From Terriglobales bacterium (lineage in GTDB: Bacteria; Acidobacteriota; Terriglobia; Terriglobales; Acidobacteriaceae): DNA of 54,636 bases. Under the pieces are notes generated by a model, which searched no databases, had not been told where the DNA came from, and worked only from the letters and a program-made list of their open reading frames with translations. The stretch is from NCBI GenBank assembly GCA_035624455.1, contig DASPRM010000052.1, positions 1 to 54,636 of the forward strand, in the 5' to 3' direction. Every line of letters begins with the position of its first letter. Positions within the stretch are counted from its first letter, which is position 1. A program made the translations under genes and the position numbers. Shown piece by piece: positions 37,116-43,392 of this stretch.

Positions 37116-37331
37116 TTACAACTTCTCCTTGTACTCCTCGTACCAGGCCATCTGAATCTCTTCGAGCTTACCCTCGTTCGAGGCCTTGGGATCATCGGAG
37201 AACCCCGGCAGTTCCATAACCATCTTGTGCAGGTCAGTGAACCGCACTTGTAGCGGATCAACGTCAGGGTGGGTCTCGGCCAGCAAAATTCCGATATCTT
37301 CAGCGCTATCCCAGGTGAGTTGCGGGGGCAT
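37116..37331 (-). CDS. iscX: IscX (YfhJ) iron-sulfur cluster assembly adaptor
   Basis: A 71-residue acidic protein. LTWDSAEDIGILLAETHPDVDPLQVRFTDL is split here as the hallmark N-terminus, LTWDSAEDIG, followed by ETHPDVDPLQVRF, LPGFSDDP and a C-terminal IQMAWYEEY. IscX binds IscS and iron and modulates cluster assembly. It is the last gene of the ISC operon as in E. coli. The start at 37331 fits the family length (about 66); the longer frame to 37421 runs into the repeat and is rejected. It is separated from fdx by 162 bases filled with a palindromic repeat. Confidence 0.92.
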   Translation of the reverse strand: MPPQLTWDSAEDIGILLAETHPDVDPLQVRFTDLHKMVMELPGFSDDPKASNEGKLEEIQMAWYEEYKEKL

Positions 37332-37378
37332 GGCTCTCCTTGCTGACCAAAAGGGGCAGGGTTGGAGCGTCGAGCAGA

Positions 37379-37490
37379 GCAGCAAAACGCAAGATCCTTC
37401 GACTCGGCGCCCGCGGCCCACAAAAACGCGGGTCGGAAAACCAAGACGGGCGCGTCGCTCAGGAGGACAGCGGTAGGGCGGTTTTGCTGC
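37379..37490 (-). repeat. Dispersed palindromic (REP-like) repeat, copy 2, inside the ISC operon
   Basis: The core 37387-37470 matches the copy at 28843-28920 (start ACGCAAGATCCTTCGACTC, GC-rich palindrome, end CGCTCAGGAGGACAG). Here the core is further flanked by perfect 10-bp inverted repeats GCAGCAAAAC (37379-37388) and GTTTTGCTGC (37481-37490), so the transcript can fold into one long stem between fdx and iscX. Confidence 0.7.
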
Positions 37491-37493
37491 ACC

Positions 37494-37913
37494 CTACTGC
37501 TCCCCACCCTCCGAAACGTAATTCCGATTCCACGCCGGTATCTCGACCACGATTTCTCCTGGCTTCTCGATCACGCATTGGCAGCCTAGACGGGAATTCA
37601 ATCGCAGATCGGCGGCCATGTCGAGACGGTCGGCTTCATCATCCTCCATGCTGCTGAGCAACTCCGACCCCTGCTTTACCCAGATGTGACATGTCGTGCA
37701 GGCACAGTTTCCGCCGCATGCATGTTCCAGGTGGATGCCGTGGTTTAGCGCCACATCCAGGATCGATTCCGGCTTGCCGTGGTCTTTGTACGGCAGGTTG
37801 CCGTGTTCGAACTCCACCACTTTGCCTTCCGGGAGAAAGGTGACGCGAGCGCAGTTGGGCCCGGGCGCCTCCACCGTGGCTGTGTTCGCTTCGTTTGTGT
37901 TCTCCTGAGACAT
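37494..37913 (-). CDS. fdx: ISC-type [2Fe-2S] ferredoxin
   Basis: A 139-residue adrenodoxin-type ferredoxin. The cluster ligands are the C-x5-C-x2-C of ACGGNCACTTC and a fourth Cys in LGCQCV. The C-terminal region ends in IVVEIPAWNRNYVSE, as in E. coli Fdx. It donates electrons to IscS/IscU during cluster assembly. The first 30 residues (Asn/Thr/Glu-rich) are an extra extension compared with the 111-residue E. coli protein. The ATG at 37913 is chosen; the upstream frame to 38057 overlaps hscA and is rejected. It lies 31 bases after hscA. Confidence 0.93.
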   Translation of the reverse strand: MSQENTNEANTATVEAPGPNCARVTFLPEGKVVEFEHGNLPYKDHGKPESILDVALNHGIHLEHACGGNCACTTCHIWVKQGSELLSSMEDDEADRLDMAADLRLNSRLGCQCVIEKPGEIVVEIPAWNRNYVSEGGEQ

Positions 37914-37944
37914 GCTTATCGTCCTAAAGAAATCTTCGCGACGC

Positions 37945-39855
37945 TCATCGCTCCGTCTTGAACTCGGCCGGCGCAAAGGGATGCGGCGCGGAGGGGCCTT
38001 CACCGACTTCCACCTGCTCGAAGGTTTTGCCCTTGAGGGCAGAAGACACGGCCTCATCCATCATCAGTTCCGCGAGATGCATGGTTCCCTGGTTCAGAGC
38101 GTCAATCGCTTTGCGGATGGCCGCGTACTCGTCGCCTTCCATCACCGCGCGCAGGGCCTTCTCCAGTTTCTCCACGCGCTTGCGCTCATCGGCAGTGAGC
38201 TGCTGCCAGCCGGGGCCCGACCGTCCCTTAGCGAGAGCAGAAAGTATGGTGTCGGCGTCGTTGCGGGCCTCGATCACCTGGCGGCGGCGGAAATCCTCCT
38301 CGGCGTTGTCGAAGGAATCGAGAATCATGCTCTCGACCTGGTCATCCGTGAGCCCGTAGCTGGGCTGAACCGCGATCTGAGCTTCCTTCCCGCTGCGCTG
38401 CTCACGGGCCGCGACATTCAGAATGCCATTGGCATCGATCAGAAATCGCACCTCGATGCGCGGCAGCCCCGCCGGCATAGGCGGAATCCCCTTCAGATCG
38501 AAGCGCGCCAGCGAGCGGCAATCAGCCGCCAGTTCCCGTTCTCCCTGCAAAACGTGAATCGCAACGTTCGTTTGACCGTCTACGCCGGTCGTGAAGTGCT
38601 CGGTCGCGGATGCTGGAATTGTTGAATTCCGCTGAATGATCTTGGCTACCACGCCGCCCAGCGCCTCGATGCCGAGCGAGAGCGGAGTAACGTCAAGCAG
38701 CAGCATCTCTTCGGTGGCTTCTGATCCGCCCGCAAGAATATTGGCTTGCACCGCTGCTCCCAGGGCGACTACTTCGTCCGGGTTCAGCTCAGAGTGCGGC
38801 ACGCGCTGAAATAGTTCCTCAACCAGTTGCCGGACGCGCGGAATGCGCGTCGAACCGCCAACCAACACAACTTCCTCGATCTGCTCCGGCCGCAGCCCGG
38901 CGTCTTTTAGCGCCTGCTTGCAGGGCGCGACCGTGCGCTGGAAGATCGGTTCTGCTAACTGAATGAACTGCTCGCGGCTGATCGTACGCTGATATTTCTT
39001 GCCTGCGGGTAGTTCCACATCGAGTGTGGCTTCAGGCTCGGACGAGAGCCTGATCTTCGCCTCAATCACCGCCTTACGAATGGCCTGCACCACCCCGGCG
39101 TTGCGCCGCACGTCCACACCCAAATCTCCCTGGATGTCGTCAAGTGCGATGGAGATGAGCAGGTTGTCGATGTCATCGCCGCCTAGATGCGTGTCACCGT
39201 TGGTCGCGATCACTTCAAAAATTCCGTCGTGCAACTTGAGAATTGAAATATCGAAGGTGCCCCCGCCGAGATCGTAAACCGCAATGATGCCGTTCTTCTT
39301 CTTGTCCAGCCCATACGCGAGCGATGCCGCGGTGGGCTCGTTCACTAAGCGCAGAACCTCCAGACCGGCGATGCGGCCGGCATCTTTTGTGGCCTGACGC
39401 TGGGCATCGTTGAAGTAGGCGGGCACGGTGATCACCGCCTTGCGCACCGGAGCTCCGAAGTAACGTTCAGCATTGCGGCGCAACTGGCGGAGGATGAAAG
39501 CGGAAATTTCCGGAGGCGTGAAGTCCTTGTCACCAAGTTTGATGCGCAATACTTCGCCGGGCTGAAGATCCTCGGCCAGGCGGAAGGGGAACAGCTTCAA
39601 CTCTTCCTGGATATCTTCGACTCCACGGCCCATCAGCCGCTTCACGGAGTACACGGCTCGTTCCGGCGTCTCGATGAGATGCTTGCGAGCGGGACTTCCG
39701 ACGATAATCTGCCCCGCGGAATCGAGCGCCACTACCGAGGGGACCAGGCTCGATCCGTCCTCGCCGGGAATGACCACCGGCTCGTTGCCCTGCATGAAGG
39801 CAACGAGCGAATTGGTGGTTCCCAGATCGATTCCGACTACGCGTTCGTCAGACAT
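37945..39855 (-). CDS. hscA: HscA, Hsp70-type chaperone for Fe-S cluster transfer
   Basis: A 636-residue Hsp70 homologue. Nucleotide-binding-domain motifs are [26 protein letters not shown] and LVGGSTRIP; the substrate-binding domain follows (about residues 390-540). Position between hscB and fdx identifies it as HscA and not DnaK. It binds the LPPVK peptide of IscU and drives cluster release with ATP. Its immediate leader has no SD but contains a 14-base tandem repeat. The ATG at 39855 begins [12 protein letters not shown]; the longer frame to 39879 adds only leader-encoded residues. Confidence 0.93.
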
Positions 39856-39861
39856 AGATAA

Positions 39862-39896
39862 GCAATCAGTAGTCAGCAATCAGCAGTCAGCAAATC
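39862..39896 (-). repeat. 14-bp tandem repeat in the hscA leader
   Basis: GCAATCAGTAGTCA (39862-39875) is followed at once by GCAATCAGCAGTCA (39876-39889) and a partial third unit GCAAATC. The same word, CTGATTGCTGACTGC, occurs at 10761-10775 in the other orientation. It takes the place of the ribosome-binding region directly ahead of hscA. Confidence 0.75.
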
Positions 39897-39925: not shown

Positions 39926-40687
39926 CTAACCTTCCAATACTTCGTTCACGTCGCGAACCAGATTTCGTATGTAGGATCGACGATTCAGCAGGGCGACCAT
40001 CTTGTCGCAAACCTTGCGTCGCGCGTCACTGGTGTCCTCCCCGCCTTCTGCGTGGGCGACCAAGCCATCCCACTCCGCCCAGTAGCCCCGCAATTCCTGA
40101 AAAAGCAGATCAAACTTCTGCTGCAGATGGCGTTTGGTCTGCTGCAACTGGTGCGCGAGGTCTTCATCGACCTCACCCGACATCCTGTTCATGCGCGCTT
40201 CTTCCAACTGTAGGTTGAGTTCAAACACCTCCTCCAGTAGCTCGGGAGGAACCACCTGCTTCTTGACGGCTCCGGTCGCACGCGCCTGATCCGTAGCATT
40301 CTTCGATTGTTCCTGCAGTTGCACTCCCTCCAGCTTGAGCAAGTACTCAGTGCGCGCGATCGGATCCTTCAGCGTGCGATAGGCATCGTTAAGTTGGGCG
40401 CTCTTCTCCAGGATCCATCCTTGCTCCTGCGTCGATGAGCGAGCGTAGAGATCGGGATGCAATTTGCGGCTCAACTGGTAAAACTCGCGTTCCAACGCCG
40501 CCGTATCGATGTCCAACTTGCGTGGAAGCCCGAAGAAGGAGAAGTAATCGGCCGGGAGCGGTGGCTGAACTTTCCCGCAGGAACTGCAAAAGTGCGCCGC
40601 CCGCATGCTGCCGCACGACCAGCAGGCGCTCAGTTCTTCATTGTTGAGGATGATGGAAGTTCCGCCCGACTTTTGCGAAGCTGTCAT
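39926..40687 (-). CDS. hscB: HscB J-domain co-chaperone with N-terminal zinc-type tetracysteine
   Basis: A 253-residue co-chaperone that stimulates HscA and delivers IscU. The J domain (about 47-120) has HPD at 77-79 in LSRKLHPDLYARS and ends in LNDAYRTLKDPIARTEYLL; the C-terminal three-helix IscU-binding domain follows. Before it, residues 22-37 carry CWSCG and FCSSCG. This two-CxxC layout and the following PPLPADYFSF resemble the N-terminal zinc module of human HSC20; the 171-residue E. coli HscB lacks it. It starts 93 bases after iscA. The start is the first ATG and leaves the tetracysteine intact. Confidence 0.93.
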   Translation of the reverse strand: MTASQKSGGTSIILNNEELSACWSCGSMRAAHFCSSCGKVQPPLPADYFSFFGLPRKLDIDTAALEREFYQLSRKLHPDLYARSSTQEQGWILEKSAQLNDAYRTLKDPIARTEYLLKLEGVQLQEQSKNATDQARATGAVKKQVVPPELLEEVFELNLQLEEARMNRMSGEVDEDLAHQLQQTKRHLQQKFDLLFQELRGYWAEWDGLVAHAEGGEDTSDARRKVCDKMVALLNRRSYIRNLVRDVNEVLEG

Positions 40688-40780: not shown

Positions 40781-41161
40781 TTATACGGAAAACGAAGTCC
40801 CACAACCGCACGACTTTTGCGCATTCGGATTCGTGAATACGAACCCCTGATGCATCAGCGACTCTTCGTAGTCCAGAGTCATGCCATGCAAGTAGATGAA
40901 TGACTTGGGATCGATAAAAATCCGCACATCACCGAACTGAAAAATGCGATCGCGTTCCTGGGGCTGCGAGTCGAAGCGAATGTTGTAGCTCAGACCGGAG
41001 CAGCCGCCTCCCTGCACACCCACGCGCAGTCCGCCCTGTTCAGGGGAGATTCCTTCCTTGGCCATCGCGACCTTGATCTTCGCGAGCGCCCTTTCTGTGA
41101 CCACCAGCCCTCGCACTGCTTGCGTTGCCGGCGCCGAACTCTCCGTGGTTTCCATACTCAT
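40781..41161 (-). CDS. iscA: A-type Fe-S carrier IscA
   Basis: A 126-residue A-type carrier with three conserved cysteines: one in GGGCSGLSY and the pair in SCGCG near the C-terminus. It accepts clusters assembled on IscU and passes them to target proteins. The N-terminal 20 residues are a Thr/Ala-rich extension not found in E. coli IscA. Position between iscU and hscB identifies the paralogue as IscA over ErpA, although sequence alone cannot exclude the latter. Met3 is an alternative start. Confidence 0.92.
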   Translation of the reverse strand: MSMETTESSAPATQAVRGLVVTERALAKIKVAMAKEGISPEQGGLRVGVQGGGCSGLSYNIRFDSQPQERDRIFQFGDVRIFIDPKSFIYLHGMTLDYEESLMHQGFVFTNPNAQKSCGCGTSFSV

Positions 41162-41200: not shown

Positions 41201-41629
41201 CTAGTCTCCCGCTTTGGCTTCGGCTGCGATGGGCGCTGGATTGTGTGCCGCCTGCTTCTTCTTCCAGTCGCTGATGGCCGCCCGGATCGCATCTTCCGCC
41301 AGCACCGAACAGTGAATCTTCACGGGAGGAAGAGAGAGCTCCTTAACAATTTCCGTATTCTTGATTTCCAGAGCTTGCTCAACCGTCTTTCCCTTGACCC
41401 ACTCGGTGGCGAGCGAGGAAGAAGCGATGGCAGAGCCACAGCCGAAGGTCTTGAATCTGGCTTCTTCGATTACCTGCGTATCCGGGTTCACCTTGATCTG
41501 CAGCTTCATTACGTCGCCGCATTCCGGAGCGCCCACCAACCCCGTCCCCACCTGGCTGCTGTTCTTGTCGAGCGAGCCCACATTCCGAGGATTGGTGTAA
41601 TGATCGAGTACTTTATCGCTGTATGCCAT
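41201..41629 (-). CDS. iscU: Fe-S cluster scaffold IscU
   Basis: A 142-residue scaffold on which [2Fe-2S] clusters are built. Ligand residues Cys37, Asp39, Cys64 and Cys107 are all present, at nearly the same positions as in E. coli. LPPVK at 100-104 is the HscA recognition peptide, which agrees with hscA and hscB being in the operon. A 15-residue Ala-rich C-terminal tail is extra. AGGAG is spaced 9 bases from the ATG. It lies 24 bases after iscS. Confidence 0.97.
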   Translation of the reverse strand: MAYSDKVLDHYTNPRNVGSLDKNSSQVGTGLVGAPECGDVMKLQIKVNPDTQVIEEARFKTFGCGSAIASSSLATEWVKGKTVEQALEIKNTEIVKELSLPPVKIHCSVLAEDAIRAAISDWKKKQAAHNPAPIAAEAKAGD

Positions 41630-41653: not shown

Positions 41654-42907
41654 CTATTCCGCAGCCCAAGCGACCTTCTTCAGATCGATACCTTCCTTCG
41701 CCATCTCATAGAGTGGAGAGAGCTCGCGCAGACGATTCACCGTTTCGACAAGACGAGCCGCCACATAATCCACTTCCGCTTCGGTGTTAAAGCGCCCCAG
41801 CCCAAAGCGTATCGAGCTGTGCGCCAGATCGTCGCCCGTCCCTAATGCCTTAAGCACATAGGACGGCTCCAATGTTGCCGACGTGCATGCCGAGCCACTG
41901 GACACGGCAACATCGTTGATGCCCATCAGCAGGGATTCGCCTTCCACATACGCGAAACTGATGTTCAGATTGTTCGGCAGACGGTGCTCCAAAGAACCGT
42001 TGATGAACACCTCGTCGAGGCTGCTCATGATTTTTTCTTTCAGGCGATCGCGCAGTGCGGAGATCCGCTTGCTCTCTTCCGCCATCTCCTGCATGCAGAG
42101 TTCGCAGGCCTTGCCTAAACCCACGATGCCGGGAACGTTTAACGTACCCGAGCGCATACCGCGCTCGTGACCTCCGCCGTCGATAATCGGCGCCACCTGC
42201 ACGCGTGGATTCTTGCGACGCACGTAGAGCGCTCCCACGCCCTTCGGGCCATAGATCTTGTGCGCCGTAATCGACATGAGATCGATATTGTCTTTGTTCA
42301 CATCGACCGGAATCTTGCCGACCGCCTGGACGGCGTCGCTGTGGAACAAGACGCCGCGCTCGCGACAGATTTTCCCGATCTCCGCAATCGGCTGCAGCAC
42401 GCCGATTTCGTTATTCGCCGCCATGATCGTGACCAGGATGGTCTTGTCATCAATGGCACGCTTCAAATCGTCCAGATCGATCAGGCCATCCTTCATCACC
42501 GGCAGGTAGGTGACGCGATAGCCGTATTTCTCCAGCCGCTTGCAGGTGTCCAGAACAGCCTTGTGCTCAGTGACCGCGGTGATAATGTGGTTGCCCTTCT
42601 CGCGGTACATCTCGGCCACGCCCTTGATCGCCAGATTGTCGCTCTCAGTGGCGCCGGAGGTGAAGATGATTTCCTTCGCACTCGCGCCTATTAGCTTCGC
42701 GATCTGCTCACGCGCGGTTTCTACCGCTTCCTCCGCCAGCCAGCCAAACTGGTGATTGCGGCTGGCAGCATTGCCAAACTTCCCGGTGAAGTACGGCAGC
42801 ATGGCTTCCAGCACTCGCGGATCGACCGGCGTGGTCGCGTGGTTGTCCATATAGATGGGTAACTGGATATCTTTATGATTGCCGTTGTCATTTACCGTCG
42901 CAGTCAT
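41654..42907 (-). CDS. iscS: Cysteine desulfurase IscS
   Basis: A 417-residue PLP enzyme that removes sulfur from cysteine and hands it to IscU. The Schiff-base lysine is Lys217 in [10 protein letters not shown], the persulfide-forming cysteine is Cys341 in SSGSACTS, a sequence typical of group-I NifS/IscS proteins. The N-terminus [14 protein letters not shown] fits the family after a 16-residue extension. It is second in the operon, 29 bases after iscR. All catalytic residues are intact. It is likely also to supply sulfur for tRNA thiolation. Confidence 0.97.
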
Positions 42908-42936: not shown

Positions 42937-43392
42937 TCAGGATTTCATCGTCAGATGAACCAGTTGTTCTCGGGTTTGGCCCTCGTCGGCTGCCTGGGTC
43001 AGTTCCCAGATGGTGAGCTTGCTCAGTACTTCTTCGATCCCCACCTTCACTTTGCGAAGCGGCTCACGCACGGTGCAGCGGTTGGTCTGTTCGCATTCCC
43101 CGCGATGAGTTACGCAGGAGGTCAGAAACAGGGGACCATCGATGGCGCGGATAACGTCGAACGCAGAAATCATGCGCGCATCGCGAGCGAGGTTATAGCC
43201 GCCATTGATCCCATGATGCGATACCAGCAAGCGGGCTCGCACCAGGCGCTGCAGAATCTTTGCCAGAAGCTCCGCGGGAATGCCGTGCGCCTCGGCCAAT
43301 TCCTTAGCGCTGCAGGCTCGATCGTGCTGGTGCTCCGCCAGATGTTTCATGGCGATCAGCCCGTAGTCTGCCTTCTTAGTGAGCTTCAGCAT
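42937..43392 (-). CDS. iscR: Rrf2-family Fe-S regulator IscR
   Basis: A 151-residue Rrf2-type winged-helix repressor. The recognition region contains ILQRLVRARLL, and HGINGGYNLAR is the wing. The cluster-binding cysteines are Cys93, Cys100 and Cys106 (CVTHRGECEQTNRC), one residue wider in the first gap than in E. coli IscR. With a [2Fe-2S] cluster it should repress its own operon. First gene of the ISC operon; a promoter with an internal palindrome lies 12 bases upstream of the ATG. Confidence 0.94.
   Translation of the reverse strand: MLKLTKKADYGLIAMKHLAEHQHDRACSAKELAEAHGIPAELLAKILQRLVRARLLVSHHGINGGYNLARDARMISAFDVIRAIDGPLFLTSCVTHRGECEQTNRCTVREPLRKVKVGIEEVLSKLTIWELTQAADEGQTREQLVHLTMKS

Follow-up and report, generated by a model that had tools for sequence, protein, structure and literature searches.

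Human HSC20 carries two N-terminal CxxC pairs ahead of its J domain, and E. coli HscB has none. An hscB gene in the window, by which we mean the whole stretch of 54,636 nucleotides that was analysed, raises the question of whether this bacterial HscB carries the same module and, if so, what the module does and where it comes from. A sequence-only reading had placed CWSCG and FCSSCG at residues 22-37, before DYFSFF and the J domain, and the translated ORF has both motifs exactly there. A review reports that human HSC20 binds zinc in vitro through the pairs C41/C44 and C58/C61, that these pairs are important for its function, and that the human protein differs from those of "fungi and most bacteria" (PMC6006194). 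Since that wording says most bacteria and not all, and since the domain is already catalogued as Pfam PF18256 (HscB_4_cys), a bacterial HscB with the module is less of a surprise than the sequence-only reading had made it.

The isc operon around the window hscB is complete (Table 1). On the minus strand, the genes run in the order rrf2 regulator, iscS, iscU, A-type carrier gene, hscB, hscA, fdx, and iscX. The window HscB scored 72.1 bits against TIGR00714 (NCBIfam hscB; cutoff 46.75) and fell under the cutoffs of all three stricter HscB equivalogs, PRK05014, PRK03578, and PRK00294. Its DnaJ match reached 29.7 bits (cutoff 27.8), with the HPD motif formed by H77, P78, and D79. The C-terminal HSCB_C domain was borderline from sequence (residues 147-197, with 20.9 bits in one search and 23.1 in another; cutoff 22.1) but clear from the fold. 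The LPPVK motif of IscU is described as the Hsp70 site (PMC9596805). The ferredoxin scored 93.6 bits against TIGR02007, under the cutoff of 132.1. As listed, the fdx ORF overlaps the end of hscA and has about 70 residues ahead of its match to the ferredoxin model; the real fdx start probably lies further in.

Table 1. Features of hscB and the surrounding isc operon in the window
Feature	Coordinates	Strand	Remarks
hscB	39926..40687	-	ATG start, 253 aa; ISC-system J-domain co-chaperone
tetracysteine module, hscB residues 22-41	40565..40624	-	CWSCGSMRAAHFCSSCGKVQ
J domain, hscB residues 47-115, HPD at 77-79	40343..40549	-	Pfam DnaJ
C-terminal IscU-binding type domain, hscB residues 147-253	39929..40249	-	HSCB_C and fold
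hscA, partner Hsp70	37945..39879	-	TIGR01991, 744.6 bits
fdx, [2Fe-2S] ferredoxin	37494..38057	-	Pfam Fer2, 37.9 over 21
iscX	37116..37421	-	TIGR03412
A-type carrier	40781..41161	-	exceeds the TIGR00049 cutoff but not those of the ErpA and IscA equivalogs
iscU scaffold, contains LPPVK	41201..41629	-	TIGR01999
iscS cysteine desulfurase	41654..42907	-	TIGR02006
Rrf2-family regulator	42937..43392	-	exceeds the rrf2_super cutoff but not those of the IscR and SUF-regulator equivalogs

Residues 22-41 of the window HscB follow the pattern CWSC-x7-FCSSCGKVQ, directly ahead of the J domain: C22-W-S-C25-G is followed by F33-C34-S-S-C37-G and Q41, after which D47-Y-F-S-F-F begins. Across 51 aligned homologues, which had been picked as module-bearing, the four cysteines, W23, and Q41 were invariant. 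When a profile of the module alone (41 columns) was searched against 177,635 PDB sequences, human HSC20 (3BVO) came first with an E-value of 1.8e-9, and the second match, ribosomal protein bL32, had an E-value of 0.013. With the window HscB alone as the phmmer query, 3BVO was again the top match (2e-20), and this alignment ran from residue 20 through the module, whereas the alignments to the E. coli and Vibrio HscBs began at residue 47. A profile of the 51 bacterial sequences matched 3BVO at 3.5e-41 and E. coli HscB at 1e-30. All four cysteines of the window HscB align one to one with those of human HSC20. The window module and the tetracysteine domain of human HSC20 are thus homologues, and the pattern is more than chance. 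The earlier suggestion that the two proteins share one layout, with the CxxC pairs at homologous positions, is borne out, as is the lack of the module in E. coli HscB, which aligns from the J domain onward only.

The two proteins share the four cysteines, the tryptophan, and the glutamine, followed by a J domain and a C-terminal helical domain. They differ in that the window HscB is bacterial and is encoded beside hscA in an isc operon, whereas the partner of the human protein is mtHsp70. The spacer between the pairs is also shorter, at 8 residues compared with 13. Over 117 rows, this spacer (the residue before the third cysteine included) varied from 5 to 17 residues, while the pairs themselves were constant. 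For animals, plants, and magnetotactic bacteria, the abstract of Bitto 2008 reportedly gives the consensus CWXCX(9-13)FCXXCXXXQ; the window HscB has 7 residues before the phenylalanine, compared with the 9-13 of that consensus. As magnetotactic bacteria are said to be included there, bacterial occurrence of the module is not claimed here as new. PF18256 matched 14 of the 51 aligned relatives at an E-value of 0.1 or lower (best 1.4e-5) and did not match the window HscB itself at 0.1, so that assignment of the latter to HscB_4_cys rests on its relatives and on 3BVO. As a genome query, PF18256 matched 0 of 21 genomes; none of the 14 controls was detected either, making that search uninformative.

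Structure prediction led to the same relative. The AlphaFold model of the window HscB had a mean pLDDT of 91.4 (89 for residues 21-30 and 92 for residues 31-40). Its best structural match was 3BVO_A, with a Z score of 15.0 and an rmsd of 3.4 over 190 residues, and model residues 20-253, the module included, were placed on residues 39-234 of that chain. Foldseek likewise ranked 3BVO_A at the top (2.5e-8). By contrast, structures from E. coli and Vibrio (both from residue 46) and from yeast aligned with the model no earlier than residue 44-46. E. coli HscB (1FPO) resembles the window HscB in its J and C-terminal domains, its operon, and its adjoining hscA but is devoid of the N-terminal module; in yeast Jac1 (3UO2/3UO3), the J and C-terminal parts, and only those, align. 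The module modelled by itself was less sure (pLDDT 76.0, pTM 0.46), and the sole structural match to that model, 7ob9_I (Z 2.0), was too weak for use.

We then quantified how widely the module occurs. Of 396 Acidobacteriota genomes, misses counted, 70 had a match at the HscB level (E-value no higher than 5.9e-45); 8 further genomes among the 78 with a match had weak matches only (2.9e-13 to 1.1e-16). The module was present in 36 of the 70 (17/31 in the first set and 19/39 in the new one) and absent from 34. Among Myxococcota, 191 of 378 genomes matched at 1e-12. The module was present in 44 of the 158 HscB-like loci read there (20/51 in the first draw and 24 among the new loci) and absent from 114, the loci read being the stronger matches listed, with weaker matches outside the count. 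Because the query profile for the first Myxococcota draw (51 HscB-like loci from 141 genomes) itself bore the module, loci with the module are favoured among the leading matches of that list. The second draw gave 108 new loci, one of which (L304) was unreadable and was excluded from the held-out count as no HPD was found. The wide absence of the module in both phyla shows that HscB can function without it.

A genome scan with patterns from module-bearing sequences was kept out of these frequency estimates. Among its best 80 of 535 matches, all were Acidobacteriota by title and tree except one Myxococcales record, L041, and the module was present in all 79 loci other than L041. Phylum labels were partly inferred, that of the window from named tree neighbours and that of Myxococcota from the title of L041. 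One record titled Arcobacter sp. (L086) carries an isc operon, and its HscB groups with Bryobacterales; it is probably a mislabelled MAG. Elsewhere, the N-termini of five gamma- and betaproteobacterial HscBs, four from plasmid records and one from E. coli K-12, were without the module. Plasmid searches gave 19 and 14 records, and in none did the match extend as far as the query's first CxxC pair. Among the literature matches listed, no title or abstract beginning dealt with the module in Acidobacteriota or Myxococcota, which is weak evidence that the literature is silent on it. What is added here is the distribution of the module over these two phyla; the motif itself was already known.

The two CxxC pairs were present or absent as a set. 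In 313 loci (159 module-bearing and 154 module-less), no row had just one pair downstream of the likely start. This set excludes L001 and L002 (the window's own gene) as well as L115-L118 and L170-L187, which repeat other rows, and it counts some species twice, as named and unnamed copies of the same sequence. A CxxC ahead of the J domain occurred in only 4 of the 154 module-less loci, each time singly and before the likely start methionine. A metal site with four ligands would be expected to behave in this way. In the 159 module-bearing loci, TGC was used 113-130 times and TGT 29-46 times at each of the four cysteines, and an in-frame ATG, GTG, or TTG lay no more than 23 codons upstream of the first cysteine in 158 of them (no more than 5 codons in 67). 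In L008 and L012, reading through a stop gave what looked like module remnants, but this stretch was the C-terminal end encoded by iscA, which lies upstream. Beyond the cysteines, the motif is looser outside Acidobacteriota: tryptophan after the first cysteine, phenylalanine before the third, and glutamine four residues after the last were found in 88, 94, and 90 of 97 Acidobacteriota rows, compared with 10, 4, and 16 of 20 module-bearing Myxococcota rows.

A conserved N-terminal extension, nearly free of cysteine, precedes the J domain in twelve Myxococcota HscBs (L120, L125, L126, L129, L133, L142, L156, L159, L160, L164, L251, and L285), around (R)PWV..G.(I/V)DL.R.P.PGE..PD.F. The first ten, L120 through L164, form one clade (99, a starred branch). 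When this extension was compared with the module by hhalign, only the start of the J domain aligned.

The history of the module was followed on a tree of 133 HscB rows, built from the J and C-terminal columns only by a quick method, on which the module changed state 5 times. A second tree, from new genomes, had 7 changes in 138 rows. Such counts do not distinguish gain from loss between phyla. The close homologues L003-L006 of the window HscB carry the module, so that its absence from all near relatives, which would have spoken against the sequence-only reading, is not observed. One whole clade of the same family is nevertheless without it: these 8 rows (99, starred) lie inside a starred group of 52 that is otherwise module-bearing. 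Elsewhere in the tree, module-less L031 adjoins module-bearing L033 (85). The latter is an IMG/VR "viral" contig with bacterial isc genes from iscR to iscX and no Fdx match found; it is probably host DNA. Because the deep Acidobacteriota rows (L024, L025-L030, L088, and L169) bear the module, loss is the simple reading within this phylum. On the simplest account, HscB of Acidobacteriota had the module from the start and lost it afterwards at least twice.

Taken together, the window HscB is quite probably an ordinary ISC HscB that has retained an old structural, zinc-binding homologue of the human HSC20 tetracysteine module. The four cysteines would bind one metal ion through two facing CxxC knuckles; we take this ion to be zinc, although sequence does not separate zinc from iron. 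The knuckle would have a structural role, folding the HscB N-terminus into a small domain that precedes the J domain. The J domain, with its HPD motif, would stimulate HscA and the C-terminal helices would bind IscU, presumably unchanged from E. coli and mitochondria.

The site might instead be a redox, persulfide, or cluster site that senses oxidation or briefly carries iron or a cluster from IscU. CxxC pairs are capable of such chemistry, and this site is located in an Fe-S assembly factor; an extra redox role had been raised in the sequence-only reading. The pairs, however, are retained or lost together while the spacing between them is free, as for a structural site. Moreover, in 13 module-less Acidobacteriota loci, hscB was still adjacent to genes for HscA (10), IscU (10), and Fdx (8), from which it follows that the pathway operates without the module, and the human site coordinates zinc in vitro (PMC6006194). 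We therefore regard a redox or cluster function as improbable; our data lend it no support, and a structural metal site fits better. In 6 of these 13 loci (L175, L176, L178, L179, L180, and L181), the isc operon was apparently split, into hscB-hscA-fdx-iscX without iscRSUA or into iscRSUA-hscB or iscU-iscA-hscB without hscA (within ~6 kb). Likeness to human HSC20, and that only, would favour a eukaryotic origin or recent import of the window hscB. Against this, the protein nests in Acidobacteriota (nearest L003, 72% identity over 185 columns), and the 76 Acidobacteriota-labelled rows form one side of a branch with an SH-aLRT of 89. The operon is also whole and includes HscA, which is confined to bacteria according to a review (PMC8215388), G+C along the window is even (0.552-0.594), and two phyla share the module. 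Such an origin is thus extremely improbable. The converse suggestion, that Acidobacteriota explain the eukaryotic form, is not supported: the module is also present in Myxococcota, human HSC20 is a long branch with no supported position on the quick-method tree of 133 rows, and among proteobacteria the sampling covered gamma- and betaproteobacterial HscBs.

Compatible with the zinc-knuckle reading is a further proposal, in which an aromatic residue at position 91, where helix III begins, would let the module dock on the J domain and tune the contact of HPD with HscA. Among the columns compared, residues 91 and 92 best separated module-bearing from module-less HscBs. W91>A and S92>A were the sole fixed HscB differences found in the module-less Acidobacteriota clade (12 vs 65 rows), and human HSC20 has F at position 91. 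In new genomes, whose rows are related, an aromatic residue occupied position 91 in 10/43 rows with the module and in 0/103 without it. A test set beforehand, scoring W/F/Y/M/L/I at 91 on new genomes, gave 10/19 module-bearing vs 0/20 module-less rows in Acidobacteriota. In Myxococcota, however, it gave 15/24 vs 36/83, and none of the 24 new module-bearing rows had an aromatic residue there. Over the whole comparison, starred branches supplied just 4 and 1 independent pairs, which is not enough. Residue 91 thus fails as a general partner of the module and is kept as a lead only; docking through it seems rather unlikely. Fixed differences in the module-less Acidobacteriota clade vs a module-bearing control numbered 2/7 for HscB, 0/2 for IscU, 9/13 for HscA, 1/3 for IscS, 1/2 for the A-type carrier, and 6/0 for Fdx, and no clear partner of the module emerged. 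The Fdx excess maps to residues 84-147 of the window fdx.

The best reading of these results is an old structural zinc knuckle that eukaryotes and some bacteria have retained and other bacteria have lost. In the portions of the literature consulted, the module is treated as belonging to HSC20 of humans or animals. As it is frequent in two phyla, and kept or lost there as a set, a mitochondrial invention is unlikely. It is possible, though we lean somewhat against it, that the module predates the split between Acidobacteriota, Myxococcota, and mitochondrial-type HscB, and that E. coli-like HscBs were secondarily stripped of it. If so, a metal-bearing part of ancestral origin, one that sets the contact of HscB with HscA or IscU, would be missing from the E. 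coli model. The clean losses inside the window's family provide natural matched pairs, and module-bearing bacteria with HscA are systems in which the use of the module is testable by gene replacement.
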